NCBI RefSeq assembly: GCF_001050195.2
Contig: NZ_DF967965.1
Location: 742,885-806,884 of the forward strand
Origin: Anaerolinea thermolimosa
Lineage (GTDB): Bacteria > Chloroflexota > Anaerolineae > Anaerolineales > Anaerolineaceae
Length of the DNA stretch: 64,000 nt
Direction: 5' to 3'
Shown here: in pieces, positions 47,054 to 60,504 of the stretch
Position numbering within the stretch: position 1 is the first letter of the stretch
Layout: every line of letters begins with the position of its first letter
Notes under the pieces: model-generated
Told to the model about the DNA's origin: nothing
What the model saw: only the letters and a program-made list of their open reading frames with translations
Database searches by the model: none
Position numbers and translations under genes: made by a program

Positions 47054-47662
47054 TCAGGATTGGGTGGAGGGGTGCTCCCTTGACTGGCTGAACAAGTAAA
47101 ATGCCGTTGCCCCCAGCGGATACCGGCGGTGGTAATCCTCAGGACTTTCTACCATCAGGTCACCTATTGGCGGCCCGAAGAGGGCTTTCGCGAGGTGGTA
47201 AAACTCATCATTTGCTTCCTTGCTCTGCCATGCTTTTGTGGCTAAAAGTAAATGCCAATAGGTTTTATCGGGGGTATCAAAGTAGGTATTTGCCAAAATC
47301 CAGGCTAAAGCCAACGGTATATCTGGCGCGACTTTGTGTACCCAAACCAGCCGCGCGGCTAATACCTTGCTAATGATGGGTCTGGAAAAACCGTTTTGTA
47401 CAGCCCATTCAACGGAGCGCTTCCAGTGCGCCAGGATAATTCGGGCGTCCTCTGGTGGGGTTTCTTCTGGCGACCATTCATCAGTGGTTTCTTCCTTACT
47501 GAATTTGGCAAACCAATGCTCAACGGTGCGCCTGGTGGGTAAGTCGAAATCCGCAAGGCGGGTATCTCTTTCCATCTGCCGGACAGTTTCGGCGGCGGAA
47601 TAACCAAGTCTGTACTTCTCACGGGCGTAGTCGTGTACTTTGGTGTCGTAGTTTTTTGGCAT
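47054..47662 (-). CDS. Element protein of unknown function, HTH-like N-terminus
   Basis: A 202-residue soluble protein, divergent from the rest of the element. The first 70 residues (DYAREKYRLGYSAAETVRQM; DLPTRRTVEHWFAKFSKEE) look like a helix-turn-helix of the type found in transposase and terminase-small-subunit families. The remainder is helical with a Trp-rich stretch (YFDTPDKTYWHLLLATKAWQ). It is transcribed away from the replication genes out of the repeat-rich control region at 47663-47772. It might be the element's regulator or a recombination directionality factor, but neither is shown. Confidence 0.55.
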   Translation of the reverse strand: MPKNYDTKVHDYAREKYRLGYSAAETVRQMERDTRLADFDLPTRRTVEHWFAKFSKEETTDEWSPEETPPEDARIILAHWKRSVEWAVQNGFSRPIISKVLAARLVWVHKVAPDIPLALAWILANTYFDTPDKTYWHLLLATKAWQSKEANDEFYHLAKALFGPPIGDLMVESPEDYHRRYPLGATAFYLFSQSREHPSTQS

Positions 47663-47676
47663 AGTAACCCTCGTTT

Positions 47677-47753
47677 ATTTTCGCTTTATTCGCGTATTTT
47701 CGCTTTTATTTTCGCTAATATTTCTGAATACTTCGTATCATCTAGGATGATAC
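47677..47753. promoter_or_regulatory. Divergent control region with direct repeats and a palindrome
   Basis: Three direct copies of ATTTTCGCT (47677-47685, 47696-47704, 47708-47716), with a partial copy ATTCGCG at 47688. They are followed by the perfect inverted repeat GTATCATC (47735-47742) TAG GATGATAC (47746-47753). The region separates divergent genes. It looks like the operator set of the element's lysogeny-type switch; the palindrome is 20 bp from the ribbon-helix-helix start. Confidence 0.6.
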
Positions 47754-47772
47754 CACAAAAAGCGGAGATAAT

Positions 47773-47973
47773 ATGTTACGTTCCCACAAACGATTTGTTA
47801 CCCAATCCAAGCCTGTGGCGTTTCGACTGCGCCAGTTGGATATCGAAGCTCTACACGGGCTAGCCGCGCATTACAGAATTGGACGCTCGGAGGTGATTCG
47901 TCTGCTGCTGACCAGCGAGTGGGCAAAAATTCAAACAATGGGGGGAAACCATGACCGGAATACAAGACAATAG
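47773..47973 (+). CDS. Ribbon-helix-helix (CopG-like) regulator
   Basis: A 66-residue protein. The core KPVAFRLRQLDIEALHGLAA followed by HYRIGRSEVIRLLLTSEWAK is the ribbon-helix-helix pattern: one beta strand, then two helices with a G-S/R turn. Such proteins bind short palindromes, and one (47735-47753) lies directly upstream, so autoregulation is likely. It is the first gene of the plus-strand replication operon. It overlaps the next gene by 23 bp. Confidence 0.75.
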   Translation: MLRSHKRFVTQSKPVAFRLRQLDIEALHGLAAHYRIGRSEVIRLLLTSEWAKIQTMGGNHDRNTRQ

Positions 47974-48358
47974 AAAGCCCGCCGCTGGCACGGCGGGGCA
48001 AGGCAACGGCGCAAGGCAAAGCGTCCGTCAGACCTATTATAGCTCCGACGGGAAGCTTGTTGCAAGTCTTTGCGGGACGGTTTTACGAAAACGGGTGCGG
48101 GCGTCCGTCCATCAGTTACGCCAGCCGCCGGCCTGGGCGGTGGATGCGGACATACTCCGCAAGGCAATGGCGGACGGGGCGCAAGTGGTTGAAATTGAAG
48201 ATACCGAAACTGGACGGGTTTTTGTTACGGGCATTCGGGCATTTGAACTTTGCGGTTTTTGCTTCAATCGTGGTTTTGGCGAGCAGGTTGCTTTGCCCTT
48301 GAAGTTTTGGCGGGTCGAAGTTGTGGATGCCCGGCAGCCTTCGTTATTCGAGGTGTGA
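47951..48358 (+). CDS. Element protein of unknown function
   Basis: A 135-residue soluble protein. The start at 47951 has GGGGGGAAA as its ribosome binding site and overlaps the regulator gene. A central part reads LRKRVRASVHQLRQPPAWAV and IEDTETGRVFVTGIRAFELC; the C-terminus is QPSLFEV. No family is recognised. The last codon is followed after one base by the helicase ATG, so the two are translated together. It may be a replication accessory factor. Confidence 0.55.
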   Translation: MTGIQDNRKPAAGTAGQGNGARQSVRQTYYSSDGKLVASLCGTVLRKRVRASVHQLRQPPAWAVDADILRKAMADGAQVVEIEDTETGRVFVTGIRAFELCGFCFNRGFGEQVALPLKFWRVEVVDARQPSLFEV

Positions 48359-48359
48359 A

Positions 48360-49745
48360 ATGGCCGACCTGGAAGATTTGCTAAAACAAGCCACTGCCGC
48401 AGCGCAATCTCCGGCCCGGCCTGAACCGACAGGCGGGGAATATGCTATCGCCGTTGCGGTTGCTGATGAACTGCGAGGCCGACTTCGGTACGCAGAGCAT
48501 ACCCGCAGCTGGATGATGTATTCTAACGGTATTTGGCAGCCTGTCAGCGTCAACCAGGCGGCTGAATTGGTGGTCGTGGCGGCGGAAGAGCACTACTTAC
48601 GGGAAATCGCCGCAACGACCGATAAAAGCGAAAAGCAGCGATTGACGAAACTGCTTGAAGCGTCCTATCGGGCGAGGACAATTACCGGCGTTCTGTTCTT
48701 CCTTGCCGGGCAGCCGGGCATTGCCACAGGTGCGGATGAGTGGGACAGGAACGGTATGCTACTACCGGTGGCTAATGGAGTAGTTGACCTGGCGGATGGC
48801 AGCCTAAAACCGCATGACCCGGACTATCTCTTTACGAAACAAGCCGGCATAACTTACGACCCGCAGGCAAGCGCGCCGCGCTGGGTGCAATTCCTTGACG
48901 AGGTATTTTCAGGCGACCAAGACCTAATCGCCTTCATTCAGCGGGCGGTGGGCTACTCGTTGACGGCGCTGACCCGTGAACAATGTTTCTTCTTCTTGCA
49001 CGGGACAGGGCGCAACGGAAAAAGCCGCTTTATTGAAACCGTCCTTTCCTTGCTGGGCGGTTTTGGCAAGTATACGGCGTTCAGTACCTTCACCCGCGAG
49101 CGAGGCAAAAACGGGCATGAAGACGACCTGATGAACCTTGAAGGGGCGCGGCTGGTGGCTTCATCCGAAAGTAAAACGATAGGGAAACTAGCAGAAGATG
49201 TTTTGAAAACGCTGGCGGGGGAAGACCCGATAACCGGTAGCCGCAAGCATGAAAAGACCCGAACCTATCGGCCACAATTCAAAATCTGGCTGGCGGCGAA
49301 TAACAGGCCCAAAGTGGATGATGTAACTGACGGGTTTTGGCGCAAGGTCATTCTGATACCGTTCGAGGCAAAGTTTGAAGGCGCAGCGGAAGATAAGCGG
49401 CTGGGTGAGAAGTTGCGTTCTGAACTGCCAGGTATTCTCGCCTGGGCAGTAAAAGGCTGCCTGGCCTACCAGCGGGAAGGATTGAACCCGCCGCAACGGT
49501 GCATTGACGCAGCGGCGGCCTGGCGGACGGACAATGACCCACTGGCTGACTTTCTGGTGACCTGCAAAGTGGGGGCCGGCCTGGAAGTCAAGGCAAGTGC
49601 GCTGTATCAGGAATACATGCAGTTTTGCGCCACAAGTGGGATGAAGCCTATCTCTTTGACGGCGTTTAGTCCACTGATTGAAGCGCACGGCTTCAAGCGG
49701 GAAGTGCGGCGCAATGGCAAGTTTTTTGTAGGAATTGGCTTATGA
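48360..49745 (+). CDS. Phage/plasmid D5-type SF3 helicase
   Basis: A 461-residue protein of the P4/D5 primase-helicase group, but without a primase domain. The N-terminal half has the D5_N region (YSNGIWQPVSVNQAAELV; LPVANGVVDLADGSLKPHDP). The SF3 helicase follows: Walker A HGTGRNGKSRFIE (about 214-226), Walker B-like GARLVASSESK, and the sensor 1/motif C FKIWLAANNRPKV. It ends in a winged-helix-like region (LYQEYMQFCATSGMKPIS). It would unwind the element's origin as a hexamer. Its stop codon is the left edge of the nested palindrome. Confidence 0.88.
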   Translation: MADLEDLLKQATAAAQSPARPEPTGGEYAIAVAVADELRGRLRYAEHTRSWMMYSNGIWQPVSVNQAAELVVVAAEEHYLREIAATTDKSEKQRLTKLLEASYRARTITGVLFFLAGQPGIATGADEWDRNGMLLPVANGVVDLADGSLKPHDPDYLFTKQAGITYDPQASAPRWVQFLDEVFSGDQDLIAFIQRAVGYSLTALTREQCFFFLHGTGRNGKSRFIETVLSLLGGFGKYTAFSTFTRERGKNGHEDDLMNLEGARLVASSESKTIGKLAEDVLKTLAGEDPITGSRKHEKTRTYRPQFKIWLAANNRPKVDDVTDGFWRKVILIPFEAKFEGAAEDKRLGEKLRSELPGILAWAVKGCLAYQREGLNPPQRCIDAAAAWRTDNDPLADFLVTCKVGAGLEVKASALYQEYMQFCATSGMKPISLTAFSPLIEAHGFKREVRRNGKFFVGIGL

Positions 49746-49862
49746 CGGGTTTTGTGACGGGTTGTGACGACTTAAGGGGGGGTTTTAGGTTTTTCCCTAT
49801 TAACTGCGAATTAATAGAAAAAAACCTAAAAGTGGCCCTAACCCGTAACAACCCGTCACACC
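49746..49862. other. Nested palindrome with repeats; candidate replication origin
   Basis: Three concentric inverted repeats share one centre near 49807: TGTGACGGGTTGT (49753-49765) with ACAACCCGTCACA (49848-49860); TTTTAGGTTTTT (49783-49794) with AAAAACCTAAAA (49820-49831); TATTAA (49798-49803) with TTAATA (49811-49816). ACGGGTT occurs four times, two per strand, at the outer edges, like iterons. The A/T-rich middle could melt easily. The place, between the helicase and the primase, fits an origin. Confidence 0.62.
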
Positions 49863-49884
49863 TTGCGGAAAGTGAGAAAAAAAA

Positions 49885-50919
49885 ATGGAGCGTATCAGTG
49901 AAACAATCAGGCGGACGACCGACCTTCTCTCCCTTGTGGAGCGGGACACTCGCTTGGAGCGGGTTGGAACGGGCTGGTGGGCCGGCCCGTGTCCGTTCTG
50001 CGGCGGAACTGACCGCTTTGTCATCAAGCGAACCGCTGACGGCTGGAGATGGCTTTGCCGCCATTGCACGGACGGCAAATACGGGGACGCTATCGATTAC
50101 GCCCGGCGGCGCAATCGGGTGGACTTCAAAGAGGCCATTCGCGAACTGGGCGGCGAGGTATCCTCACCCTTGCGGCATGAACGGGAGCAGCCAGAGCCGC
50201 AGCCAGAGCCGCAGCCACAGCCTGAGCCGCAGACGATTGAACGGATGACCCGTTTGGCTTACCAGGCCGCAAACGAACTGGACGGTAATTCGCCGCTGGC
50301 GGCAGAGGTGCGGTCCTACCTTGACCGGAGGGGTATCATCGAGCCGACCCGTCAAAGGGCGATGCTGGGGGCGCGGATGGTTTACGACCCGAAATTGAAG
50401 CGGGAGCGGCCAGCGGTGAGCATTCCTTACTTCAATTCCAGGTTGGACGTCCGGGGAATCAAATACCGGTTTTGTGACGACCTGCCGGGTGGTTTGAGAT
50501 ATGCGATGGAGCGGGGAAGTCAGAGCGGGTTTTACTGCCTACCGGAGTGCCTGGGTGGCTTCGACCGGTTGATGATTGTAGAAGGTGAATTGAACCTGCT
50601 ATCGCTGGCGCAGGTGCTGCCGGAGCTCGACCTGATTAGCACGGGCAGCCAGAGCCTAAGCGAGGCAATGAAGCAAACCCTTTCGCGCCTTGCGGCCCGA
50701 TACCGCCGGATTTTGTGCTGGTTTGACGACCGCGAACGTGCGGCGGAAGTGGCCCGACTTGTGCGGGGCGTGCCGGTGCAATCGCCACAGGTGGACGGCG
50801 AAAAGTGGGACGCGAACAAGCTGCTTCAGGCTGACCTGTTACACAGCTTCGTCACCCGACTAACCGGTGTTCGGTGCTTCGGATGGACGCTGGAAGGCTG
50901 GAGGAATCATCATGAATAG
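49885..50919 (+). CDS. DnaG-type primase (CHC2 zinc finger and Toprim)
   Basis: A 344-residue protein that would make RNA primers for the element. The N-terminal zinc finger has Cys36, Cys39, Cys58 and Cys61 (GPCPFCGG and LCRHC). A Glu-Pro-Gln linker (about 98-113) follows, encoded by tandem 12-bp DNA repeats. The Toprim domain has the acidic motif LMIVEGELNLLSL (about 231) and the DxD-like CWFDDRERAAEV (about 276). It is shorter than a chromosomal DnaG and lacks the helicase-binding domain. A ribosome binding site is not clear. The next gene starts inside its last codons. Confidence 0.87.
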   Translation: MERISETIRRTTDLLSLVERDTRLERVGTGWWAGPCPFCGGTDRFVIKRTADGWRWLCRHCTDGKYGDAIDYARRRNRVDFKEAIRELGGEVSSPLRHEREQPEPQPEPQPQPEPQTIERMTRLAYQAANELDGNSPLAAEVRSYLDRRGIIEPTRQRAMLGARMVYDPKLKRERPAVSIPYFNSRLDVRGIKYRFCDDLPGGLRYAMERGSQSGFYCLPECLGGFDRLMIVEGELNLLSLAQVLPELDLISTGSQSLSEAMKQTLSRLAARYRRILCWFDDRERAAEVARLVRGVPVQSPQVDGEKWDANKLLQADLLHSFVTRLTGVRCFGWTLEGWRNHHE

Positions 50920-51232
50920 CACCTGGAAAGCAACGGAAAGAGCAATCGCCCGAAGGCTGGGCGGGAAGCGTGTACCGATAACGGGCCGTGCGCGTGGTTC
51001 AGCGCCGGACGTTGCCCACACATGGCTTAGCATTGAGGTCAAGCACAGGAAGCGCCTGCCGCGATGGCTGGCGGATGCCATCGACCAGGCTGTGGCTGCG
51101 GCGGTTGAGGGGCAATTGCCGATTGTCATTCTTCATGAGAGTGGACAACGGCACGATAATGATTTGGTGTTGACGCGGCTGAGTGATTTCGAAAGCTGGT
51201 TTGGCTCGATTGGAGGTGACGATGAGGACTGA
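50912..51232 (+). CDS. PD-(D/E)XK-type nuclease, Holliday-junction-resolvase-like
   Basis: A 106-residue protein that overlaps the primase stop. The pattern ERAIARRLGGKRVPITG, SAPDVAHTWLSIEVKHRKR, then PIVILHESG follows the PD-(D/E)XK core: an early Glu, the Asp of PDV, and the Glu and Lys of EVK. The size and the GxRxPxxG opening are like Hjc-type resolvases and the small phage nucleases. It might resolve replication intermediates of the element. Confidence 0.72.
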   Translation: MNSTWKATERAIARRLGGKRVPITGRARGSAPDVAHTWLSIEVKHRKRLPRWLADAIDQAVAAAVEGQLPIVILHESGQRHDNDLVLTRLSDFESWFGSIGGDDED

Positions 51233-51446
51233 AACCGATTTCGTCTTTCGCCTGGCTGAGGTGCGCGACCCGTTCGCTGTGGAAGACCCTTTCTTGCTGG
51301 CATTCATGGCCTTGCCGCCAAAGCAGCGCCGGTGGGTGGCACGTCAAACGATTTTGTTGTGCGCCGCTGTTGATGGGCTCGACACGCTGGGGGCGCTGGA
51401 ATTGTTGGCGCGGATTGCGCCGTTTGCGGAGGCGAACCGCCATTGA
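51222..51446 (+). CDS. Small element protein of unknown function
   Basis: A 74-residue helical protein. The ATG at 51222 has GGAGGTGAC upstream and overlaps the nuclease stop by 11 bp. The middle reads LAFMALPPKQRRWVARQ. No family is recognised. It ends the first plus-strand operon of the element. Confidence 0.5.
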   Translation: MRTETDFVFRLAEVRDPFAVEDPFLLAFMALPPKQRRWVARQTILLCAAVDGLDTLGALELLARIAPFAEANRH

Positions 51447-51499
51447 GGGCTGGCGACTGATAGCGGTCATAAAACCGCCTCAAAATAGAACACTTGCTC

Positions 51500-51505
51500 T
51501 ATAAT
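51500..51505 (+). promoter_or_regulatory. -10 element of the second element operon
   Basis: TATAAT at 51500-51505, 24 bp before the next start codon (SD AAAGGA). No clear -35 is present. A small hairpin GCGGT/ACCGC (about 51457-51472) lies upstream. Confidence 0.5.
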
Positions 51506-51528
51506 TCGAATAGAAAGGACTATATGGT

Positions 51529-52302
51529 ATGTTTACGCAAAAAATGTCGAACGATGATGCTCTCCGGTATGCGAAGGCGTATTTTCCAAAAAGCCTGGTA
51601 GCCGAACTTGAGCGCCTCACCTACCAGACCGAACCGGAACGGGCGCATGAGGCGCTTGCTCGATTTTCGGCGGCGATTGTGAAAGCGCGGCGAGAAATCG
51701 CAAACGGGGGTTTTCAACCGGAGGTCAAGGTTGCCATGTTTGAAATGTTGCGCCAGGAGGCGGAAAATGGGCTAAATGCCATTCGGGCGAACTTGACCAA
51801 AAAGCTGGCAAGGGAGAAAGCCGACATTGCTGACCGGCTGCGGGAGTTTGAAGATGAAGCGGCTGGCGACAATTTTCAGACTTACCTTTCAATGCGCTGG
51901 CCGTTGCTGCAACGGGCGTTGGATGCCGGGCGTTCTGTGGCTGAGGTTTTGGCCGCTTCGGGTGACCGGCGGGATGCTTACGTCTTGCGGCGAAATTTGC
52001 CGCTGCTGCTGTCAGAACGGTACACTGGCAGAGATTTTGAAATTGCCTTGCAGGGCGCGCTGGCCGAAATCGAACTCTGGGAACGCGGAAAAATGTCCGA
52101 GCAAGAATTGAAACTCCGTGACCGCCTGGGCCGCCACAATTCGGGTGCTTATCGGGTGGAGGTTTCGCTTTCTCAGGCTGAAACGGCCCTTGCTTCTGAC
52201 CCACAAAGTGGATTGCCATTCACTGGATTTGACGGTGAAGTAGTCTGGCTTCACCCTGACGGGCGGGTGAACGAAACTCCGCCACAGGGATTAGGACAAT
52301 GA
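51529..52302 (+). CDS. Coiled-coil element protein of unknown function
   Basis: A 257-residue soluble protein, mostly helical, with a charged stretch of heptad character (AREKADIADRLREFEDEA). The C-terminal 40 residues are Pro/Gly-rich (GLPFTGFDGEVVWLHPDGRV). Position just before a terminase-small-subunit-like gene recalls capsid-associated or scaffolding proteins of satellites, but no motif supports that. The next start overlaps its stop by 4 bp (ATGA). Confidence 0.5.
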   Translation: MFTQKMSNDDALRYAKAYFPKSLVAELERLTYQTEPERAHEALARFSAAIVKARREIANGGFQPEVKVAMFEMLRQEAENGLNAIRANLTKKLAREKADIADRLREFEDEAAGDNFQTYLSMRWPLLQRALDAGRSVAEVLAASGDRRDAYVLRRNLPLLLSERYTGRDFEIALQGALAEIELWERGKMSEQELKLRDRLGRHNSGAYRVEVSLSQAETALASDPQSGLPFTGFDGEVVWLHPDGRVNETPPQGLGQ

Positions 52303-52580
52303 ACTATACTGCTTTGCCACTGGCTGACCTGATAGCCGGCCTGCCGCCGGAAGTGCGGCGCGACTTCGACAGGGCCCGCTTCCGGCTGGCGCTGGAAGGC
52401 GCAACGGATGAGGAAATCACGGCGGCGCTGGTGACGTTTGGCTATCTGGTGCAATTGCTTACCGGCAAAATTCCCTTTGACTGCTGGAAATTGCGTTCAT
52501 ATCTGAACATGGGTGAAAATGACCGCAAACGACCTAACCGCAAGGCAAAAGCGCTTTATTCAGGCCCTGCTGACCAGTAA
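52299..52580 (+). CDS. Small element protein of unknown function
   Basis: A 93-residue protein beginning MNYTALPLADLIAGLPPEV, with a helical core (FDRARFRLALEGATDEEITA) and a basic tail (NDRKRPNRKAKAL). Its last 62 bases overlap the next gene in another frame, so its C-terminus or the next start could be shifted. Coupled to the coiled-coil gene by ATGA. Confidence 0.45.
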   Translation: MNYTALPLADLIAGLPPEVRRDFDRARFRLALEGATDEEITAALVTFGYLVQLLTGKIPFDCWKLRSYLNMGENDRKRPNRKAKALYSGPADQ

Positions 52581-52920
52581 GAGCGCACGGGAAGCAGCGC
52601 GCCAGGCCGGGGTGGGTGAGAAGACCGCCTACCGCTGGTTGCGCCTGCCACAGGTGCAATCTGCCCTTGCGGAAGCGGAAGCCCTGATGATGGGTGAAGT
52701 CATGCGGCGACTGCTGGGTATGCAGGGGGCGGCGGCGGATGCACTCGACGAGATTGTCTCCGACCGCCGCCTTCCTGCCGCACGGCTTCAGGCGGCTAAA
52801 ATGATTTTAGACAACCTCCTGCGTCTGCGAAGTGCGGTTGAGCTGGAAACGCGCCTGGCGGAGCTGGAGCGGAAGCTGGAGCAGGTATCCAGCCAGGGTG
52901 AGCCGCCGCACGGCGATTGA
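52519..52920 (+). CDS. Terminase-small-subunit-like HTH protein
   Basis: A 133-residue protein from the ATG at 52519 (GTG at 52513 possible). The N-terminal homeodomain-like HTH, TARQKRFIQALLTSKSAREA then GVGEKTAYRWLRLPQVQ, is the pattern of phage terminase small subunits of the phBC6A51 type. The C-terminal helices (AARLQAAKMILDNLLRLRSA; TRLAELERKLEQV) suggest oligomerisation. In phage islands a satellite-specific TerS redirects packaging to the satellite genome. No large terminase is present here. Some HTH proteins with this fold are not terminases, so the role is inferred. Confidence 0.65.
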   Translation: MTANDLTARQKRFIQALLTSKSAREAARQAGVGEKTAYRWLRLPQVQSALAEAEALMMGEVMRRLLGMQGAAADALDEIVSDRRLPAARLQAAKMILDNLLRLRSAVELETRLAELERKLEQVSSQGEPPHGD

Positions 52921-53000
52921 ACCGAAATCGGTGCAGAATGCCCTTCCAGGCGCACGTAGAGCCGCGATTTCAGGATGGGGTGATAAATGACCTGTGGCGG

Positions 53001-53372
53001 CTAATCGGCGGTTTTATAGGGGCTTTCGGCGGTAACCGCAGAATTGCCAAACTCTCCGCCATGTTTCCAAATGTGAATCGTCAGCCGACCTACACATTCG
53101 GTGAAGTCCGCGATGGTATCGTAAAGAGTTGTGCTGCCCTTAGCCGACTCATAGAGGACATAGTAAATCCAGGCGAAATCTTCAAAGAACTCTTTGAGTG
53201 AAACAGGTACTTGCCTGGCAATCAGGCTTTGGGCCTCTTCCAGTAACACCTCGACAAATTCGGGCTGGACGCCCAGGAACTCAGGCGTCAGGCTGGCCGT
53301 AACCATCTCGAAGCGGTCTGGCTTGTGTGTGGTGTCCGGGGTGGGTTGGGTTTTGCCGTTGGATTTAGACAT
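53001..53372 (-). CDS. Element protein of unknown function, preceded by a strong ribosome binding site
   Basis: A 123-residue acidic protein on the minus strand, with AAGGAGGT correctly placed before the ATG. Residues 30-90 are helical (FVEVLLEEAQSLIARQVPV; FFEDFAWIYYVLYESAKG). No family is recognised. It is transcribed in the same direction as the integrase, between it and the right end of the replication and terminase-like genes. Confidence 0.55.
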   Translation of the reverse strand: MSKSNGKTQPTPDTTHKPDRFEMVTASLTPEFLGVQPEFVEVLLEEAQSLIARQVPVSLKEFFEDFAWIYYVLYESAKGSTTLYDTIADFTECVGRLTIHIWKHGGEFGNSAVTAESPYKTAD

Positions 53373-53465
53373 GGGAAACCTCCTTTTGGGTGAAAAAAAT
53401 GGATTCTGGTTTTTTCATTGACGTAATTTGTCAACAGGGCTGATTTGCGCGTGAAAAATATATTC

Positions 53466-54407
53466 TCATCCTTTCTTCCACAGGTTATCTACCGGGCTGG
53501 CCTTACGGTGGGCGGCCCGGGTGTCAGTATCGGCAAGAGCCAGATAGTGCTCTACCATTTTCAAGGTGGAATGGCCGAGAATGCGCTGAAGCGTGAATAC
53601 ATCGCCGCCGTTACGCAGATACTGAATGGCGAAGGTGTGCCGGAAGCGGTGGGGATGGACGTTCTGAACGCCGGCGCGGTCACCCAATCGCACTAACAGA
53701 TGACGCAGCGAAACGCGGTCAAACGGTCTGCCTTCGCGGGTGAAGAACAATGCGCCGTCGTTTTCGTTGCGCCTGGCCAGATAAAGCCACAGCGCTTTTT
53801 GGGTGGCGTTGCCAATCGGAATAACGCGGGGGCGCGATTTTACGCCGGAAAGGTGAGGTCTTACGGTGATTGTGCCATTATTAAGGTCGATGTCTTTCAC
53901 GGTCAGCCGGCACAATTCAGAGGCGCGGATGCCTGTATCCAGCAGAAGCATGATAATAGCGCGGTCTCTGTGCGCTGTTGCACGCGGCATGGTGAAGGAC
54001 TTGCGCTTTCCCTGAGATGGGGTGGTGCGTTCAACGGCTTTGAGCAGAGCCTTTACTTCATCTTCCGAAAGCGGCAGTATCTCACGGTAGGCAAAGCGCG
54101 GTTTGGTGAGGGCTTTATCCGGTCTGTCGGATAATCCTTCGGAGGACGTCCATTTGAAAAGCGCACGGATGGCTTTCCAGACATGAAACACAGAAGTTGG
54201 GGAAAGGCGCGGGTTTTCCTGAACGGCGGCCAGAAAACGCCGCAGGTCATCGGTGGTGACCTGTTGAAGCGGCATATCGGAAAAGCGGATGAGCATGTCC
54301 AATGCCCATTGATACTGGTTGAGGGTTTGCGGACTGTATCCATCCGCCCGGCGAGCCATGAGGAAGCCATGAACGGCCTGTGAAAGCAAGAGGCCTGAGG
54401 TAGTCAT
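53466..54407 (-). CDS. Tyrosine recombinase (integrase) of the element
   Basis: A 313-residue site-specific recombinase from the ATG at 54407 (GGAGAT upstream). The N-terminal SAM-like core-binding domain covers about 5-95 and the catalytic domain about 105-300. The catalytic residues are visible: Arg161 (TGIRASEL), Lys190, His253 and Arg256 (HPHRFRHTF), His279 (LGHST) and the nucleophile Tyr288 (MVEHYLAL). It closely resembles XerC/D-like phage integrases. It lies 68 bp from the intact tRNA-Pro, as expected for integration at the tRNA 3' end. Its arm sites are probably the 12-bp inverted repeats at the two ends. Confidence 0.92.
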   Translation of the reverse strand: MTTSGLLLSQAVHGFLMARRADGYSPQTLNQYQWALDMLIRFSDMPLQQVTTDDLRRFLAAVQENPRLSPTSVFHVWKAIRALFKWTSSEGLSDRPDKALTKPRFAYREILPLSEDEVKALLKAVERTTPSQGKRKSFTMPRATAHRDRAIIMLLLDTGIRASELCRLTVKDIDLNNGTITVRPHLSGVKSRPRVIPIGNATQKALWLYLARRNENDGALFFTREGRPFDRVSLRHLLVRLGDRAGVQNVHPHRFRHTFAIQYLRNGGDVFTLQRILGHSTLKMVEHYLALADTDTRAAHRKASPVDNLWKKG

Positions 54408-54422
54408 GGATAATCTCCAGTT

Positions 54423-54434
54423 GCCTACCACAGG
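54423..54434 (-). repeat. Right 12-bp end repeat, candidate integrase arm site
   Basis: GCCTACCACAGG on the plus strand is the exact reverse complement of 46953-46964. It lies 41 bp inside the right attachment repeat, in the integrase leader. Confidence 0.6.
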
Positions 54435-54474
54435 CCTCATTGTCCTGATGATTCAGGAGAGCAAGTTATCTTAG

Positions 54475-54520
54475 GTCGGGGCGAAAGGATTTGAACCTTC
54501 GACCTCTTGCACCCCATGCA
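54475..54520 (-). repeat. Right attachment repeat inside the intact tRNA-Pro
   Basis: A 46-bp perfect copy of 46849-46894. It covers the anticodon loop to the 3' end of the tRNA, a usual crossover site for tRNA-targeting tyrosine recombinases. Confidence 0.92.
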
Positions 54521-54550
54521 AGCGCGCTAGCCGGGCTGCGCCACGCCCCG
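54476..54550 (-). tRNA. tRNA-Pro (anticodon GGG)
   Basis: A 75-nt cloverleaf on the minus strand: acceptor CGGGGCG with CGCCCCG, D-stem GCGC/GCGC, anticodon stem CTTGC/GCAAG with loop ATGGGGT (anticodon GGG), a T-loop TTCAAAT and a discriminator A. CCA is not encoded. Its 3' part has been supplied by the element, and its own terminator now lies at 46801-46841. Confidence 0.93.
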
Positions 54551-54607: not shown

Positions 54608-55015
54608 TTATTTCGATCTTCCTGCCTGGAAGAAACCGGCGTAAGCTTTATCCTCACCAAGGATATGGTTCACCAGCCATTCTTTAAGAAAGTGAATCAT
54701 CTGCACGCTCAGGCCGATTGTCCCGTCCTGGTACTGACGTTGAAATTCAAGTACTTGTCGCGTCAGGCTTTCATGAGAGGCCTGATGCCGAGCGTACCCG
54801 GGGTACTGGTATTGCACCATCCATTCTTCCTCGCTTGCAAAGTGGACGCGGGTATACTGGATCAGTTTTTCCAGAATGCTCCCGAGTTCTTGTTGTCCTT
54901 TCCCTTCACGCATGGATTCGTGGAGCTCGTTGATTAAATCCACCAGGACGTGATGTTGACGGTCAAAGCGATCCATTCCTACTGAAAAGCGATCTTCCCA
55001 TTGAAGCAGGCTCAT
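54608..55015 (-). CDS. Bacteriohemerythrin
   Basis: A 135-residue four-helix protein with a non-heme di-iron site that binds oxygen. The ligands are visible: His in RQHHVLVDLINELHE, HFASEEEWM (His and Glu), HQASHESL (two His), and the final HILGEDKAYAGFF (His and Asp). The start at 55015 (MSLLQWEDRFSVGMDRFD) has GGAG upstream. It likely senses, stores or scavenges oxygen in a mostly anaerobic or microaerobic cell. It stands alone. Confidence 0.9.
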   Translation of the reverse strand: MSLLQWEDRFSVGMDRFDRQHHVLVDLINELHESMREGKGQQELGSILEKLIQYTRVHFASEEEWMVQYQYPGYARHQASHESLTRQVLEFQRQYQDGTIGLSVQMIHFLKEWLVNHILGEDKAYAGFFQAGRSK

Positions 55016-55097
55016 GCGTAAACTCCAAGTCAGTGTTAAAAATTTCACCCACTGTACCGTAGAGGATGAGCGTTTGCCATAAAAAAAGGGTAAAAGG

Positions 55098-55850
55098 TCA
55101 GGGGACGATCCCCATCGCGTAGAAGGTGGGAACGAAAAGAACGCGGGTGCCTTTCTTCCAGGCCTGGCGGTCTAGCTCTTCCAAAAAATTAAGGTGCTGA
55201 CCATTGACCCGATGCTGTAAATCGGAGCGAAGAACGCACCACTCGAGGTCAAGTTCCTCCCTGGCAGGGGAATCCTGCCACTGCCCCCCGATGACCCCGC
55301 TTTGAATGGCTTGTAGTCCCGCCTCGGAAAACAGGGCGCGGAGTTTTCTACCCATTAATGGGTCGGCTCCCTGTTCCTGTAACGCCCGGGCCTGCCATTG
55401 ACCCAGTTCGGCCAGAGCGTCGGGGTAATCGATGCGCCCGCCATAATCGGGCTCGGCCAGTGCAAGGAGGATTCCGCCGGGAGCGGTTACCCGTTTCATT
55501 TCCATTAGGGCGGCGGGTGCATCTACCCACATCAAGAAAAAGTGGCAAAGGGTAACATCGAAGATGCCCGTGTCGAAGGGTAGAGCGTTTGCGTCTGCCG
55601 TAACAAGATGTGCCTGCGGAGAAAACCGGGAAGCAAAGCGGGCTTTGGTTACCTCGATGTCAACGCCCACAAGCCGGGTGGGTTTCGCATAGGCGAGAAG
55701 GTCTTGAAGAATGACCCCTGTACCACAGCCCACTTCTAATACTGAGCGGGCCTCAGCCAGGTTGCATAGGTTGTACAGGTAGTTTCTCAGAGATTGTGTC
55801 CAGCCGGCCTGTTGGGTGTATCGCCGGTGCCAGTCTGGAAGAGAGATCAT
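55098..55850 (-). CDS. Class I SAM-dependent methyltransferase
   Basis: A 250-residue Rossmann-fold methyltransferase from the ATG at 55850. Motif I is VLEVGCGTGVILQDLL (about 38), followed by LVGVDIE (motif II region), DANALPFDTGIFD and HFFLMWVDAP. Its start overlaps the stop of the degenerate radical SAM gene by 4 bp (ATGA), so it is tightly coupled to the operon that runs from 60504. It is the last gene; a GGGGATCGTCCCC hairpin and a T-run follow the stop. The substrate is unknown; the modified tail of the membrane protein upstream is one possibility. Confidence 0.83.
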   Translation of the reverse strand: MISLPDWHRRYTQQAGWTQSLRNYLYNLCNLAEARSVLEVGCGTGVILQDLLAYAKPTRLVGVDIEVTKARFASRFSPQAHLVTADANALPFDTGIFDVTLCHFFLMWVDAPAALMEMKRVTAPGGILLALAEPDYGGRIDYPDALAELGQWQARALQEQGADPLMGRKLRALFSEAGLQAIQSGVIGGQWQDSPAREELDLEWCVLRSDLQHRVNGQHLNFLEELDRQAWKKGTRVLFVPTFYAMGIVP

Positions 55851-57019
55851 TCCTCCCTCTGCCGAACGTTTTTCCAGATCATTTCCCAGGAGTCGCGCAG
55901 GAGGTTGCCGAGCACCCCGGGTACCCCCTGACTCAACAATACATCTCCATCTGGTTCCACATAGATCCAGGCTTTTCCTGCACCATGAGGGATTTCGCCA
56001 TTGGTCTGAGCGAGCTCCAGCGAAACAGGATTGAATCGCGAATAGGGGACGGGTAAATCCCAAACCAGGGTTAGGCCTCGTTCTGCAATGATCTGCCTTG
56101 CCGTGGGGAGCAAATCCAGCAGTTCTCTTGAACCTGCGCTGAGCGAAACTTTTTGAACCCCCATCGAGGCCAGCCGGTCTACGATGGATGCAAACCGAGG
56201 CTCATCCCGCGAGGTAAGGGTCAGGTGGACTGCAATGGCAAGGTCTTCAGCCAGGCAGTCGCGCAGGGCTTCCCATGAGGCTTCATCCACAGGATCAAGA
56301 ATAAGCATCATGTGGTCCAGGCCGGCCTGCAGCATTCGATGGAGGTAGTCGCGTTCGGCAAAGCGCAGGCCATTGGTGATGACTCCGGTGACCATGCCAA
56401 GCTTACTTGCAAAACCAACCAGATCGGGTAAATCGGGGCGCAGGGTTGGCTCTCCGCCTGTGAAAACCACGTGAGGAATTCCGGCATCCCAGGCCTTTTG
56501 CAGAATGACTTGCCAGTCTGAGTGGGGAAGTTCGTCTTTGACTCGATCTACCGGTACATATTGCTGGTAACCAGAGTCGGGGAGGCGATAGGTGAGGGCA
56601 CAATCCAGGCGGTATGGGGCGGAGATGGCGCCTGAGTAGGGTTCCTCACGGTCGAAGTCCAGATAGGTTACCGGATCGAGATCGGGCACTTCGATCAGGG
56701 CCCGCAGGCGTTCAACCAGATTCTGGTAATCAGCCAGAGCCCGGGTTTCTTGAATGTTATACCGTCTGGCGACCTGTGCGGCGACCTGTTCAGGCGGAGT
56801 GTTGTAAATGAGATGGTAGATATACTCTGCGGCGGTTTGATTGAGATGGATGACCGTACTCCCATTGAGGATGAGTACGCCCCAGCCATCGGGCTCGATG
56901 CGAAGGTGCAGCCGGTAAGGAAACTCAGCATCAGGGGGGGCGGTGTAGGTATATACCCCGGAAGGAAGGGGCCGGTGAGGCGGGAAAAAGCGTTCGACAA
57001 GGGTGCGAAAGGCGTTCAT
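55847..57019 (-). CDS. Degenerate radical SAM paralogue lacking the cluster cysteines
   Basis: A 390-residue paralogue of the next upstream gene. Residues 30-110 match its PqqD-like N-terminal domain (HLRIEPDGWGVLILNGS). The barrel aligns closely (ALTYR, GIPHVVFTGGEPTLRPDLP, TGVITNGLRF). At the three cluster positions Cys is replaced by Leu146, Gly150 and Gln153, with spacing kept. The C-terminal SPASM cysteines are also gone, and the protein ends about 40 residues early. The frame and the SAM-binding GGEPT are preserved, so it is not decaying. It may act as a structural partner of the intact enzyme. It is 13 bp from that gene and overlaps the methyltransferase. Confidence 0.85.
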   Translation of the reverse strand: MNAFRTLVERFFPPHRPLPSGVYTYTAPPDAEFPYRLHLRIEPDGWGVLILNGSTVIHLNQTAAEYIYHLIYNTPPEQVAAQVARRYNIQETRALADYQNLVERLRALIEVPDLDPVTYLDFDREEPYSGAISAPYRLDCALTYRLPDSGYQQYVPVDRVKDELPHSDWQVILQKAWDAGIPHVVFTGGEPTLRPDLPDLVGFASKLGMVTGVITNGLRFAERDYLHRMLQAGLDHMMLILDPVDEASWEALRDCLAEDLAIAVHLTLTSRDEPRFASIVDRLASMGVQKVSLSAGSRELLDLLPTARQIIAERGLTLVWDLPVPYSRFNPVSLELAQTNGEIPHGAGKAWIYVEPDGDVLLSQGVPGVLGNLLRDSWEMIWKNVRQREE

Positions 57020-57032
57020 AGAACCTCGCAGA

Positions 57033-58418
57033 TCAGCTGAATCTCAAAGAGGCTGGTTGTGAAACAGGGATGGACGAACGAGAAAGAGGACATCCACCCC
57101 CACACATCTCAAGAATACTGCATTCCTGGCAGGCAGCCGGGAGATTACGCCGTTCTCTCAGGCTGACCGCAAGCGGGTGATTCCAGATGCCCTCCCAGGG
57201 ATCGTTGGGAAGATACCCCAGAGGCTGATAATAAGACTGGCAGGGCAGAACTGCGCCATCGGGTTCGATGCACATTGCATAAAGAGCAGCCGTGCATCCT
57301 TTCACCCCCAGATCGAGCAAAACTGGATCGAATTCACAATACCGGGTGGGGGTATACCAGATGAGGCGCTGACCGGTTTGGGCCACCCTTGCTCTGGCGG
57401 TTTGAAGCAGTGCGGGAAGGCTGGCTTCCGAAAGGCCGGTACCCACAGCGGCTCCCTTTCCAGAGTAAATCAGGGCATTTAACCCGATGGTAGGAACCCC
57501 CAGTTCGGCCAGGAAGGAGAGCGTTTGATTCAGGGTAGGACTGTTGTGGGTAAGCAGGGTGGTGTTGGTCATGACATAAAGCGGAGAGGCCAGTGCGTTG
57601 CGAATTCCCTGAACCGTCTCCTCCCAGGCTCCACGGGCGCAGACCATGGCGTCATGGATCTGTGGGTCGTGGCTTTCCAGGGTGATCTGGATGTGGTCAA
57701 GTCCGGCTTGAACCAGGGCGTGAACAAAGGCAGGGTCTTTCAATCGGCGTCCATTGGTGTTGACGCCGGTGATTTGCCCATTTTGTTCGGCATGGGCAAT
57801 GAGTTCAGGCAGGTCGGCGCGTAGAGTTGGTTCACCCCCGGTAAAAACGATGTGGGGAATGCCGATCTGCCAGAGGAGATCCAGAATGCGCTTCCATTCT
57901 GTGGTGCTCAATTCAGGGAATTGGCGGGGCCGGGCATTGTAGCAGTGAGCACATTCATTATTGCAACGGTAAGTCAATGCCAGGTCCATACGGTAGGGCG
58001 CGAAAGGCGCGGACTGGAAGGGCATGGTGGTTTCCAGATCGAGTTCACAGAGGGGGCAATGCTCGCCTGGTTCTGTGAGGAGATCGATCCGGGTGGAGAT
58101 CTGGGTGTAATCTTCCGTCAGAGTCTGGCGCGGCGCATGATACCAGTTCTGTAAGGTTTTCAATGCCTGCTGAAGGGGAACTTTTTTCAGCGCCAGGTAC
58201 GCCATACGAGCGGCTGTAGGGTTGAGCTGGTAGGCGCGGCTGGCGTTCACCAGGAGCAAACCACGCCCATCAGGTTCAATACGTAAATGGATGCGAGCCT
58301 TGCCGGCAGGTGTATCCCTTTTGAAGTGATACACCCCACTGGCTGGCGGTAATATGGCCGGATGAGGAGAAAGCCAGCGCGTTAAGCGGGAGGAGATATG
58401 AGACAGTTTTCCTATCAT
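57033..58418 (-). CDS. PqqD-like/radical SAM/SPASM maturase
   Basis: A 461-residue radical SAM enzyme. The N-terminal region (about 25-110, HLRIEPDGRGLLLVNASRAY) resembles PqqD, the peptide-recognition domain of RiPP maturases. The catalytic barrel has the [4Fe-4S] cysteines 152, 156 and 159 (RCNNECAHCYN) and the SAM motif GGEPTLR (about 194). The C-terminal SPASM part has further cysteines for auxiliary clusters (CIEPDGAVLPCQ; CQECSILEMCGGGCP). Such enzymes make thioether or carbon-carbon links in peptides. It starts 6 bp after the Cys-rich-tail gene, the best candidate substrate. Confidence 0.87.
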   Translation of the reverse strand: MIGKLSHISSRLTRWLSPHPAILPPASGVYHFKRDTPAGKARIHLRIEPDGRGLLLVNASRAYQLNPTAARMAYLALKKVPLQQALKTLQNWYHAPRQTLTEDYTQISTRIDLLTEPGEHCPLCELDLETTMPFQSAPFAPYRMDLALTYRCNNECAHCYNARPRQFPELSTTEWKRILDLLWQIGIPHIVFTGGEPTLRADLPELIAHAEQNGQITGVNTNGRRLKDPAFVHALVQAGLDHIQITLESHDPQIHDAMVCARGAWEETVQGIRNALASPLYVMTNTTLLTHNSPTLNQTLSFLAELGVPTIGLNALIYSGKGAAVGTGLSEASLPALLQTARARVAQTGQRLIWYTPTRYCEFDPVLLDLGVKGCTAALYAMCIEPDGAVLPCQSYYQPLGYLPNDPWEGIWNHPLAVSLRERRNLPAACQECSILEMCGGGCPLSRSSIPVSQPASLRFS

Positions 58419-58424
58419 GCTGGT

Positions 58425-60116
58425 TTATCGGCCACCACCGGCGCACGCGCAGGCACAGCCTGCACAGGCACAGGCGCAGGCACAGGAACGCCCACCCCCA
58501 CCACCTCCGCCTTTCCAGGTGGAAGAAGTAGTTTGAGGAACAGGGTTGGTCTTATTGGTGATATTTCCTGTGAAACTGGTGAGGTCTCCAATGACCCCTG
58601 CAGAGAAGCTCTGCACGCCGCCGACGATCGAGGCGGCAAAATCTGCTCCGGGGAGGGTAGGCATCGAGGAAGACGCGGGTGCCTGTCCGACCTGGGCGGG
58701 CGCACGGCTTACAGGGGAACTTCCGGTGGAACGACCGAAACCCGGATCGTACCTTCCCCACCACATGGGGACGACGACAGGCCCACGGCTGAGCACTTCG
58801 CGTGAGCGATCGTCGAAACGGCGGTCGAGCATCGTCCAGTCCATATTTTCGTCAAAACGCTGCATGCGTACTTCGGGCGTGTCGGCGGCCTCTACCTGTT
58901 CCCAGGCTTTTTGCATGATGTCTTTATAATAGTCAACGGTTTCCTTCCGGCTGAAGCCACGCATTTTTTCAGAAACCGAGCGTACTAAAGCGATCATCAT
59001 GTCCTGTAATTTCTGACGTCTTTCCCGCGGAGATTCCTCAGCCATGGCGGTGAGGAAGTCCTTTTCGTAAGATCTTAACTCGACTTCCGCAGGGAGTTCG
59101 TGGATTTGCAATTTCAGAGGGTCACGGCTGATGACCGTGGCGGCTCCCTTCTTGATCACTGAAAAGAGAATCATGCTGAGGATTTTATCCATCGGCTGTT
59201 CCATTAAGATGGCAGCCTCGACAGCGGTTAGGCCTCGCTTAATTCCGTTGCCTTCGAGAGATATTTTTGGTGGAAGGTACTGGAGCTTTCGCTTGCGGTT
59301 GGAGACAACGGAGGCCCAGATGACTAACCCCATAAAGCCGAAGAAACCAAGGCAGAACAGAGCTGGACACAGGCTATCCCAGACATCCTTCGTCACGATT
59401 GGTTCGGTCACCAGTGCGGCTGCGGGTACGGCACGTTGTGGGAAGGCGGCTCCAAAGATGTACTGCGTCTCGGTGTCCGCGTTATTGGCCTGCCAGCGGT
59501 AGAAGATCCGTCCTTCCTGGGTGAAACCCGAGGTGGGTTCTTCAGTACCCGGCCAGGATTGGGGAGTGAACCAGCGAGGTTCATCAGCGTTTAAACCAGG
59601 AGGCAGAATAAGAGAGACGGTTACGTCTGTTTTTCCGTGCACGAACTCACTTCCAAAGGAGTTTGGGGAAAACTGGAAGCTTGCGTACGGTTCGGGAGCG
59701 TTTTCTACTTTGTTGGTTTTATAGAGCATCTTCTGGATACCTGAGATGGTTATCCTGAAAGTGCCCTGGCCACCCGGTGGAATGGCACGTGAGCCCAACC
59801 CAATCGCAACGCCGGGTTTAACATAGGGGGATTCCTCGATGCTGGATACCGGTTGCCCATTGATATCAGCGGTGACATTGTTGAGGCTGTAACTGTAGGT
59901 CGGAAGGCCGATATCGATGTAATCAATTGGCGCCCCTGATGGATCATTCACAAACACATACAGGTAAGAGACCGTTGCCGATCCATCGGCTTCAATGAGG
60001 AGGGTGACTTCTTCACGCTCGACCTGAAAGCTCAGGTTCTGAGCCGAAGCTGGAGTGGTGACAGAAAACAGGATGAGTAAGGTGGCTAAAAAAAGCCAGA
60101 TGCGTTTTAACAACAT
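58425..60116 (-). CDS. DUF2207-like membrane protein with Cys-Ala repeat tail
   Basis: A 563-residue protein. A Sec signal (about 1-25, LFLATLLILFSVTTPASA) is followed by an external beta domain (about 26-240) and one transmembrane helix (about 249-271). Next is a cytoplasmic helical region (GLTAVEAAILMEQPMDKILS; EKDFLTAMAEESPRER), and then a Ser/Pro-rich spacer. It ends with seven glycines and a tail of Cys-Ala repeats, CACACACAGCACACAGGGR. The seven cysteines (545-558) alternate with Ala around one Gly. If the topology is right, the tail is in the cytoplasm, where radical SAM enzymes work. The fold matches DUF2207. SD GGGAGGG precedes the ATG. Confidence 0.83.
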   Translation of the reverse strand: MLLKRIWLFLATLLILFSVTTPASAQNLSFQVEREEVTLLIEADGSATVSYLYVFVNDPSGAPIDYIDIGLPTYSYSLNNVTADINGQPVSSIEESPYVKPGVAIGLGSRAIPPGGQGTFRITISGIQKMLYKTNKVENAPEPYASFQFSPNSFGSEFVHGKTDVTVSLILPPGLNADEPRWFTPQSWPGTEEPTSGFTQEGRIFYRWQANNADTETQYIFGAAFPQRAVPAAALVTEPIVTKDVWDSLCPALFCLGFFGFMGLVIWASVVSNRKRKLQYLPPKISLEGNGIKRGLTAVEAAILMEQPMDKILSMILFSVIKKGAATVISRDPLKLQIHELPAEVELRSYEKDFLTAMAEESPRERRQKLQDMMIALVRSVSEKMRGFSRKETVDYYKDIMQKAWEQVEAADTPEVRMQRFDENMDWTMLDRRFDDRSREVLSRGPVVVPMWWGRYDPGFGRSTGSSPVSRAPAQVGQAPASSSMPTLPGADFAASIVGGVQSFSAGVIGDLTSFTGNITNKTNPVPQTTSSTWKGGGGGGGRSCACACACAGCACACAGGGR

Positions 60117-60150
60117 TTTCCCTCCCGGTGTTTTTATCCCGTGCGGCCCT

Positions 60151-60504
60151 TTACCACTTTGGGTCTTCGGTCAGTTGATAAACTGTATGGCAGTAAGGGC
60201 AGGTCACCATGGGTGCCCCATTCACCACCTTGATGTTCTCAGCGGTCAGAGTGCCCCCGCAGGATTTGCATTTGATCGTGTCCATTCCCACATTGCCGGG
60301 GAGGTCGATTTTCAATGTCACCTGAGTGCCGGCCTCAGCTTTGGCTTTTCGAGATATCAGGTAAAGGATTGTGAGTCCAATGCCGGCGCTGAGCACACCG
60401 ACGACAATCCAGCCGGGTTGCGGGGTTGAGCCAAACGCCCCCCAGATGAATAAAACCCCGAAGAAAATAAGGATCGCTGCCACAATATAACCGATCGTTT
60501 TCAT
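60151..60504 (-). CDS. Zinc-ribbon membrane protein
   Basis: A 117-residue protein from the ATG at 60504 (GGAGG upstream). It has two hydrophobic helices (YIVAAILIFFGVLFIWGAF and GWIVVGVLSAGIGLTILYLI) and a C-terminal zinc ribbon with two CxxC pairs (KCKSCGG and TCPYCHTVY). It is the first gene of the operon and ends 34 bp before the DUF2207-like gene. The ribbon faces the cytoplasm if the two-helix hairpin model is right. It might help present or assemble the tail protein, but that is inference. Confidence 0.72.
   Translation of the reverse strand: MKTIGYIVAAILIFFGVLFIWGAFGSTPQPGWIVVGVLSAGIGLTILYLISRKAKAEAGTQVTLKIDLPGNVGMDTIKCKSCGGTLTAENIKVVNGAPMVTCPYCHTVYQLTEDPKW

Follow-up and report, generated by a model that had tools for sequence, protein, structure and literature searches.

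A conserved Cys-Ala membrane-protein tail paired with a radical SAM enzyme: a candidate membrane-anchored RiPP-like modification system

Described systems and the operon in the window

Cysteine-rich tails of membrane proteins have been placed next to RiPP-type enzymes before. TIGR04222 membrane proteins carry a Gly/Cys-rich C-terminal tail which is proposed to be the substrate of an adjoining MNIO enzyme, and one third of the genomes with TIGR04222 genes are without MNIO (PMC12452194). Other precedents come from radical SAM enzymes. QhpD introduces several thioethers into the gamma subunit of quinohemoprotein amine dehydrogenase, which is not a released peptide (PMC8172795), TvgB modifies TVGG repeats several times (PMC9062424), and SkfB is an RRE-Twitch sactisynthase (PMC6231123). 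On the side of the membrane protein, a DUF2207 mutant of Streptococcus mutans (SMU.243) was sensitive to acid and peroxide, and the abstract of that account mentions no maturase (PMC10457818).

The locus studied here lies in a stretch of 64,000 nucleotides from Anaerolinea thermolimosa (referred to as the window). Re-derivation of its ORFs recovered the five minus-strand genes of the original prediction, running from 60504 to 55098 with gaps of 34, 6, 13 and -4 bp and encoding, in this order, a small membrane protein, a 563-aa tail protein, a radical SAM/SPASM maturase, a cluster-less paralogue and a class I methyltransferase (Table 1). The end of the tail protein likewise reads as had been claimed, with seven glycines followed by RS and then by CACACACAGCACACAGGGR; its C-terminus reads GGGGGGGRSCACACACAGCACACAGGGR, corresponding to (CA)4G(CA)3GGGR. 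Unlike sactipeptide and other RiPP loci, the operon has no short precursor peptide, its only Cys-rich candidate being the end of this 563-aa membrane protein, and no match to the MNIO family was found among its five proteins.

By our own count, all five genes stand in window order in 35 of 50 fetched regions (some with intervening genes), the remaining 15 being contig ends, fragments or variants. In those 35 full-order regions the first operon gene is the upstream neighbour of the tail gene; its product combines a hydrophobic N-terminus with a zinc-ribbon-like CXXC...CXXC end and has Pfam matches that are weak at best. At three loci (L051, L059 and L070), the genes between the maturase and the paralogue or methyltransferase differ from one locus to another, and these genes were left out of the system.

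Table 1. Features of the operon in the window, with coordinates, strand and basis of assignment
Feature	Coordinates	Strand	Basis
Small membrane protein, zinc-ribbon-like C-terminus, operon gene 1	60151..60504	-	ORF, sequence
563-aa single-pass membrane protein with Cys-Ala tail	58425..60116	-	ORF; homologues in 49/61 relatives; predicted model
Ectodomain of tail protein, residues 26-228, beta-sandwich	59433..60041	-	predicted model and fold search (Z 17.1 to Ost1, 6ezn)
Transmembrane helix of tail protein, residues 243-278	59283..59390	-	predicted model, hydropathy
Gly7 linker of tail protein, residues 536-542	58491..58511	-	sequence
Cys-Ala tail CACACACAGCACACAGGGR, residues 545-563	58428..58484	-	sequence; conservation
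Radical SAM-SPASM maturase with putative RRE, 461 aa	57033..58418	-	PF04055 E 1e-25, PF13186 E 7e-8; alignment
Maturase radical SAM cluster motif CX3CX2C, residues 152-159	57942..57965	-	invariant in 12/12 aligned
Maturase SPASM cysteines, residues 361-443	57090..57338	-	eight Cys invariant in 12/12 aligned
Cluster-less radical SAM paralogue, PqqD-like N-terminus	55847..57019	-	PF04055 E 1.5e-10; PF05402 27.5 bits, above gathering
Class I SAM methyltransferase	55098..55850	-	PF08241 E 9e-18

Conservation of the tail and its co-occurrence with the enzyme

A protein search recovered homologues of the tail protein in 49 of 61 relatives, including 34 of the 37 members of the window's own family (window included). 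Among the homologues longer than 480 aa (n = 46, window included), 45 end in (CA)3-6, G or S, (CA)3-5 and GGGR, the sole exception being L082, which is cut by its contig and was kept in the count. Of the shorter homologue pieces outside this count, three carry the terminal tail (L078, L079 and L083) and three do not (L077, L084 and L085). Across these 46 proteins, identity to the window protein is 97% in the last 19 residues, compared with 32-60% in the other parts measured, and the Gly-rich linker ahead of the tail is variable. Synonymous sites vary in the codons of 47 tails while the residues hold, indicating that selection acts on the protein; the tail is a genuine feature under strong selection. 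We also considered the tail as a DNA repeat or reading artefact, and rejected this on the same codon variation. In L087, the tail is out of frame with its protein with the break at the Gly run, possibly an assembly slip.

The DNA motif for CACACAGGG was found once per genome in 38 of 77 genomes of the order and class, a set including the genomes outside the genus from the earlier search that lacked a tail protein, and its reversed control was found in none of the 77. The occurrence of the tail is not chance. As the original prediction had proposed, the tail is tied to a radical SAM neighbour: all 38 tail genomes have the family enzyme at E 1e-115 or better, whereas of the 39 genomes without the motif four have a family member and the other 35 have none at 1e-40 (Fisher's exact p 9e-18 for tail versus enzyme, although related genomes are not independent samples). 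Tail and enzyme lie within 1 kb of each other in 34 of the 38 genomes and within 5 kb in 37; in the remaining genome, G057, they are 127 kb apart. In G057 and also in G044 (at about 4 kb), the enzyme lies away from the tail gene and adjoins a tail-less piece of a homologue. As for the four motif-less genomes with a family member, the tail-protein gene is cut by a contig end in G041, G154 retains the paralogue alone with neither tail nor active enzyme, and G193 and G433 carry a different tail type.

This second type, an ACHS/ACVHD-repeat tail with 11-13 Cys, is found on a membrane protein beside a related enzyme in three genomes: G193 and G433 belong to other families of the same class, and G070 comes from elsewhere in the phylum. 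G070 also holds a CACA...GGGR tail with its own enzyme on another contig, in an assembly that is 8% contaminated, so that one of the two tail-enzyme pairs may not belong there. In a tree of 32 chosen maturases (those from loci beyond the Anaerolineales set being trimmed to their last 430-450 residues where longer), the three ACHS enzymes formed one group (100/100) and ten clostridial enzymes another (100/100); its deep joins were flagged as long-branch and are not relied on. The tail type covaries with the enzyme clade, as expected of a substrate.

A context-blind scan for the DNA of CACACACA, (TGYGCN)4, in any frame across 84,980 species, each represented by a single genome, yielded at least 119 stretches of up to 8 kb each. 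All 119 were examined, the first 80 with Chloroflexota models only and the last 39 with clostridial models too. In 28 of these listed stretches the run lies inside a C-terminal tail ending in or passing through GGGR, and in the other 91 it lies in other frames or contexts, a division that likewise told against a DNA repeat. The 28 listed tails come from nine Chloroflexi/Anaerolineales, fourteen Clostridia-type Bacillota, four archaea (one Heimdallarchaeon, two Methanomassiliicoccales and one other Thermoplasmatota) and one Candidatus Sabulitectum (Fermentibacterota). A radical SAM enzyme of this kind is present in the genomes of all 28 and close to the tail gene in 27, whereas none of the 91 other listed stretches had a maturase match at E 1e-4. 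Cys tails equally frequent without a radical SAM neighbour, which would have spoken against the pairing, were thus seen neither here (28 of 28 versus 0 of 91) nor in the class (38 of 38).

Some of the 28 pairings had to be completed beyond the stretch: in L148, whose edge cuts the maturase, the genome carries it at that place, and for L177 and L196 it was found on longer pieces of the same contigs. In L191 and L199 the maturase is visible but cut. Near the L098 tail stands the cluster-less paralogue alone, with the intact enzyme on another contig. A control stretch (L186) gave a 20-bit match to the clostridial membrane model, which was taken as chance, and L121, L150 and L170 showed methyltransferase matches without a maturase.

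The search was also run in reverse, with a Lachnospiraceae enzyme instead of the tail as query against 150 genomes of the same family. Thirteen genomes matched, query genome included, and in all 12 other clostridial loci a membrane protein with a cysteine tail adjoins the enzyme (nine tails of the CACACA...GGGRAGC type and three of the CASS/CACACACASSGRAGC type). In a sample of 99 from the class of another clostridial genome, the enzyme occurred only in that genome itself, and in that class the system is patchy. Within the phylum, at least 18 of 251 genomes hold a member of the enzyme family (one of them, G154, the paralogue only), a count from which members can be missed as at most six candidates were scored per genome. 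The system occurs widely in one order and patchily in gut and rumen Clostridia, it is also found in archaea, and the predicted co-occurrence holds far beyond the window.

Properties of the enzymes and of the membrane protein

The maturase had been described as an intact PqqD-like/radical SAM/SPASM protein. Its radical SAM and SPASM parts stood, with PF04055 at E 1e-25, PF13186 at 33 bits (cut-off 21.5), CNNECAHC at residues 152-159 and CX2CX5CX3C at residues 430-443, while the PqqD/RRE model (PF05402) reached 18.0 bits against a cut-off of 23.4, compared with 27.5 bits in the paralogue. The CX3CX2C motif and eight C-terminal cysteines, CX2CX5CX3C among them, are invariant in the 12 aligned maturases, and the clostridial enzyme is truncated in the SPASM region (PF13186 at 22.5 bits in L138). 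By sequence, the nearest solved structures are SkfB (E 8e-25, in an alignment that begins at maturase position 42) and PqqE (3e-20), others being weaker; the predicted maturase model has a mean pLDDT of 72. The ACGX maturase model TIGR04340 scored 87.5 bits in L206 against a cut-off of 400, and was absent from the best 25 of 68 families for the window enzyme. In G054, G046 and G041, a second enzyme copy retains SPASM-like cysteines.

The paralogue indeed lacks the cluster cysteines, in that CX3CX2C is absent while GGEPT is retained, and CX3CX2C appears in none of 43 paralogue rows. Seventeen relatives align with it over the whole length at 27-65% identity, which, together with the uniform lack of the motif, argues against a decaying pseudogene. 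Because it is conserved though cluster-less, we take the paralogue for a partner.

The last gene is the SAM methyltransferase that had been predicted, of class I (PF08241, E 9e-18). The Anaerolineales methyltransferase model matched all four archaeal loci (116-216 bits) and five of the nine Chloroflexi stretches, where misses say little as the stretches are short. Elsewhere it matched weakly in L136 (49 bits) and in one of the three ACHS loci (49 bits), and it found no match in L220 or in any of 26 clostridial loci. The tails at these clostridial loci extend beyond GGGR. The presence of the methyltransferase correlates with a GGGR tail end, and a correlation is all that we claim; neither the methyltransferase nor the paralogue is universal in the system.

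The predicted model of the tail protein (22 sequences, mean pLDDT 78.5, pTM 0.43) comprises a beta-sandwich ectodomain and one long transmembrane helix, followed by a cytoplasmic domain that is largely helical and a tail modelled with low confidence. Matches in a fold search with VIA-align 2 were confined to the ectodomain, the best being Ost1 from the yeast oligosaccharyltransferase (Z 17.1, with 184 residues aligned at 2.7 A), followed by M1 aminopeptidase domains at Z about 12. In 41 of 45 Anaerolineales proteins there are more Lys/Arg after the transmembrane helix than before it, suggesting that the tail is inside, in line with the cytoplasmic location originally proposed. By a simple hydropathy rule, 30 of the 46 Anaerolineales proteins have a single hydrophobic segment past residue 60, 13 have two and 3 have three; in the examples inspected, the extra segments correspond to a weak segment or to the tail itself. 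Among 31 proteins from beyond the Anaerolineales set, 29 have a hydrophobic segment at residues 219-333 ahead of the tail; in the two exceptions (L105 and L136) the ORF start is wrong and the segment lies elsewhere. Of 22 clostridial proteins, 12 carry a zinc-ribbon-like stretch between helix and tail, which the other 10 lack.

DUF2207 proteins consist of an ectodomain, a transmembrane helix and a cytoplasmic part. The window protein shares this general build with SMU.243 but differs in having no Pfam match: no Pfam or NCBIfam family was found for it at E 0.01, and the label "DUF2207-like" of the original prediction denotes resemblance, not membership. SMU.243 is at best a distant relative. 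PF09972 (DUF2207) matched two of five clostridial/archaeal tail proteins, both clostridial (E 0.002 and 0.005, at 18.8 and 17.5 bits, under the gathering cut-off of 24.4), and none of the other tail proteins scanned, window protein included (E 0.01). Likewise, TIGR04222 (cut-off 43) gave no match in the window protein at E 0.01, and 17.5 and 16.1 bits in L145 and L205, respectively. Neither the membrane protein nor its enzyme pairing has a name in Pfam or NCBIfam as scanned.

Proposed modification of the tail and comparison with known systems

Given the pairing of tail and enzyme, the conservation of both and the covariation of tail type with enzyme clade, we read the cysteine tail as the substrate of the maturase, which we regard as very probable. 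Judging from sequence, this enzyme probably modifies the tail within the membrane protein, and the tail rather more likely stays attached than not. Thioether chemistry is a tentative guess from the enzyme's kin, falling somewhat short of an even chance. Observations that run against this reading are the remote enzyme in G057, G044 and the L098 genome, and the retention of the paralogue alone in G154.

The operon might thus represent a membrane-anchored RiPP-like modification system, in which the membrane protein would have an external ectodomain and a cytoplasmic Gly/Cys-Ala tail. The radical SAM-SPASM enzyme, with its putative RRE, would act on the alternating cysteines of this tail, perhaps with the cluster-less paralogue as its binding partner. 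The most likely product would be several intramolecular bonds from Cys sulfur to backbone carbon, with nearby Ala or Gly as partners, so that the tail would become a compact appendage held by cross-links; on tails ending in GGGR, the methyltransferase may make a further addition. The roles given here to paralogue and methyltransferase are inferred. It is conceivable, if not quite probable, that bacterial and archaeal membrane proteins, the Heimdallarchaeon's included, carry a permanent, enzyme-made, cross-linked cytoplasmic Cys-Ala appendage that is not exported and has an intracellular redox, metal or scaffold role.

Alternatively, the membrane protein might be a mere carrier, with the modified tail being cleaved from it to yield a free small peptide. 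The Gly-rich, variable linker ahead of the tail would suit such a cut, as would the continuation of the clostridial tails past GGGR into a conserved AGCxxK(D/E) segment, a possible removed follower. We nevertheless consider release unlikely, as no protease or exporter family matched among the five operon proteins and the tail is nearly invariant across an order and common to archaea, unlike fast-changing bacteriocins.

The enzyme might also leave the cysteines free and epimerise every second tail residue (alternating L/D) instead of forming cross-links, with the thiols then lining one side of a ribbon or helix. Radical SAM epimerases with every-second-residue periodicity exist, and the strict two-residue period of (CA)n would fit such a reaction; this period is broken in the ACHS/ACVHD tails and CASS variants, which retain the cysteines, and the nearest solved relative of the enzyme is a sactisynthase, making epimerisation improbable.

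A fully reduced, unmodified metal-binding tail would give the same conservation, CXC repeats bind metals in known proteins, and zinc-ribbon-like segments occur in the neighbouring gene of the window and in 12 of the 22 clostridial proteins, but a metallothionein-like array of unmodified thiols binding metals or clusters, with the enzyme modifying something else or assembling the metal site, has little probability since it leaves unexplained both the relative of radical SAM peptide maturases at 38 of 38 and 28 of 28 (listed) tails and the match of tail type to enzyme clade.

Read as a maturase substrate, the tail resembles in its setting that of the TIGR04222 proteins, where a membrane protein's Cys-rich tail is also the proposed substrate of a neighbouring RiPP-type enzyme; the enzyme is an MNIO there and a radical SAM enzyme here, and the tail is predicted to be periplasmic there and cytoplasmic here (PMC12452194). 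That a radical SAM enzyme may act on an entire protein, as proposed here, has its parallel in QhpD, whose substrate is a soluble enzyme subunit receiving Cys-to-Asp/Glu links, whereas the (CA)n tail has no Asp/Glu (PMC8172795). Repeated modification of a short repeat, equally proposed here, is reported for TvgB, there on a peptide precursor, with valine chemistry and no cysteines (PMC9062424). SkfB and other sactisynthases unite an RRE, a radical SAM barrel and an auxiliary-cluster region in one enzyme, as the window enzyme does with a putative RRE, but SkfB acts on a short exported peptide and has a Twitch domain in place of the fuller SPASM Cys set (PMC6231123).

Three elements (an enzyme acting on a protein subunit, modification of a repeat, and a membrane Cys tail as proposed substrate of an MNIO) thus have separate precedents, and no title or abstract among the papers listed in searches of the open-access literature describes their combination in a tail protein/radical SAM pairing. 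Radical SAM peptide chemistry has mostly been studied on small secreted peptides. Here, a radical SAM gene is tied, almost without exception among the loci examined, to an invariant membrane-protein tail, and if that tail is modified, this would be protein-resident chemistry on a short, repetitive and precisely placed substrate.

Maturase and tail gene arrangements in relatives

Two clostridial stretches carried two tail genes for a single maturase gene. In L142 the two flanked the maturase gene, one to each side; in L135 they formed a tandem array together with a third homologue that lacked the tail. In one genome whose maturase gene lies apart from its tail gene (127 kb away, beside a tail-less homologue piece; stretch L084), the maturase had a C-terminal Cys/Gly-rich stretch of its own (GGGCSGCSGSCGTGG). 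In one further relative (L051), the maturase and paralogue genes were separated by three genes, and these look like genes for a putative CDP-alcohol phosphatidyltransferase, an acyltransferase and a PAP2 phosphatase.

Clostridial tail extension

Beyond GGGR (or SSGR), a conserved AGC[ST]xK[DE] segment was present in 21 of 22 clostridial proteins (e.g. in L138, L142, L135 and L222-L233), the one protein without it (L126) having its end cut by the stretch edge. It may serve for recognition or as a follower.

DNA downstream of the operon

The methyltransferase gene was followed after 49 bp by a bacteriohemerythrin gene. Adjoining the operon is an apparent integrated phage-like element, with genes for a D5-type helicase-primase, a DnaG-type zinc-ribbon protein, a terminase-small-subunit-like protein and a tyrosine integrase.

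Coordinates of the features discussed (window positions unless a stretch is named)
Feature	Position	Remarks
Candidate phage-like element	47054-54550	bordered at its end by tRNA-Pro gene
Bacteriohemerythrin gene	54608-55048	same strand as methyltransferase; PF01814, E 2.5e-16
Tail protein gene	58425-60116	minus strand
Separate maturase gene	L084:4566-6206	
Three intervening genes	L051:10269-12404	

Ectodomain of the tail protein

A Heimdallarchaeon (L096) has a homologue. Among the matches listed, the predicted ectodomain (residues 26-228) aligned best with a part of the eukaryotic oligosaccharyltransferase, Ost1/ribophorin I (Z 17.1), followed by M1 aminopeptidase domains (Z about 12).
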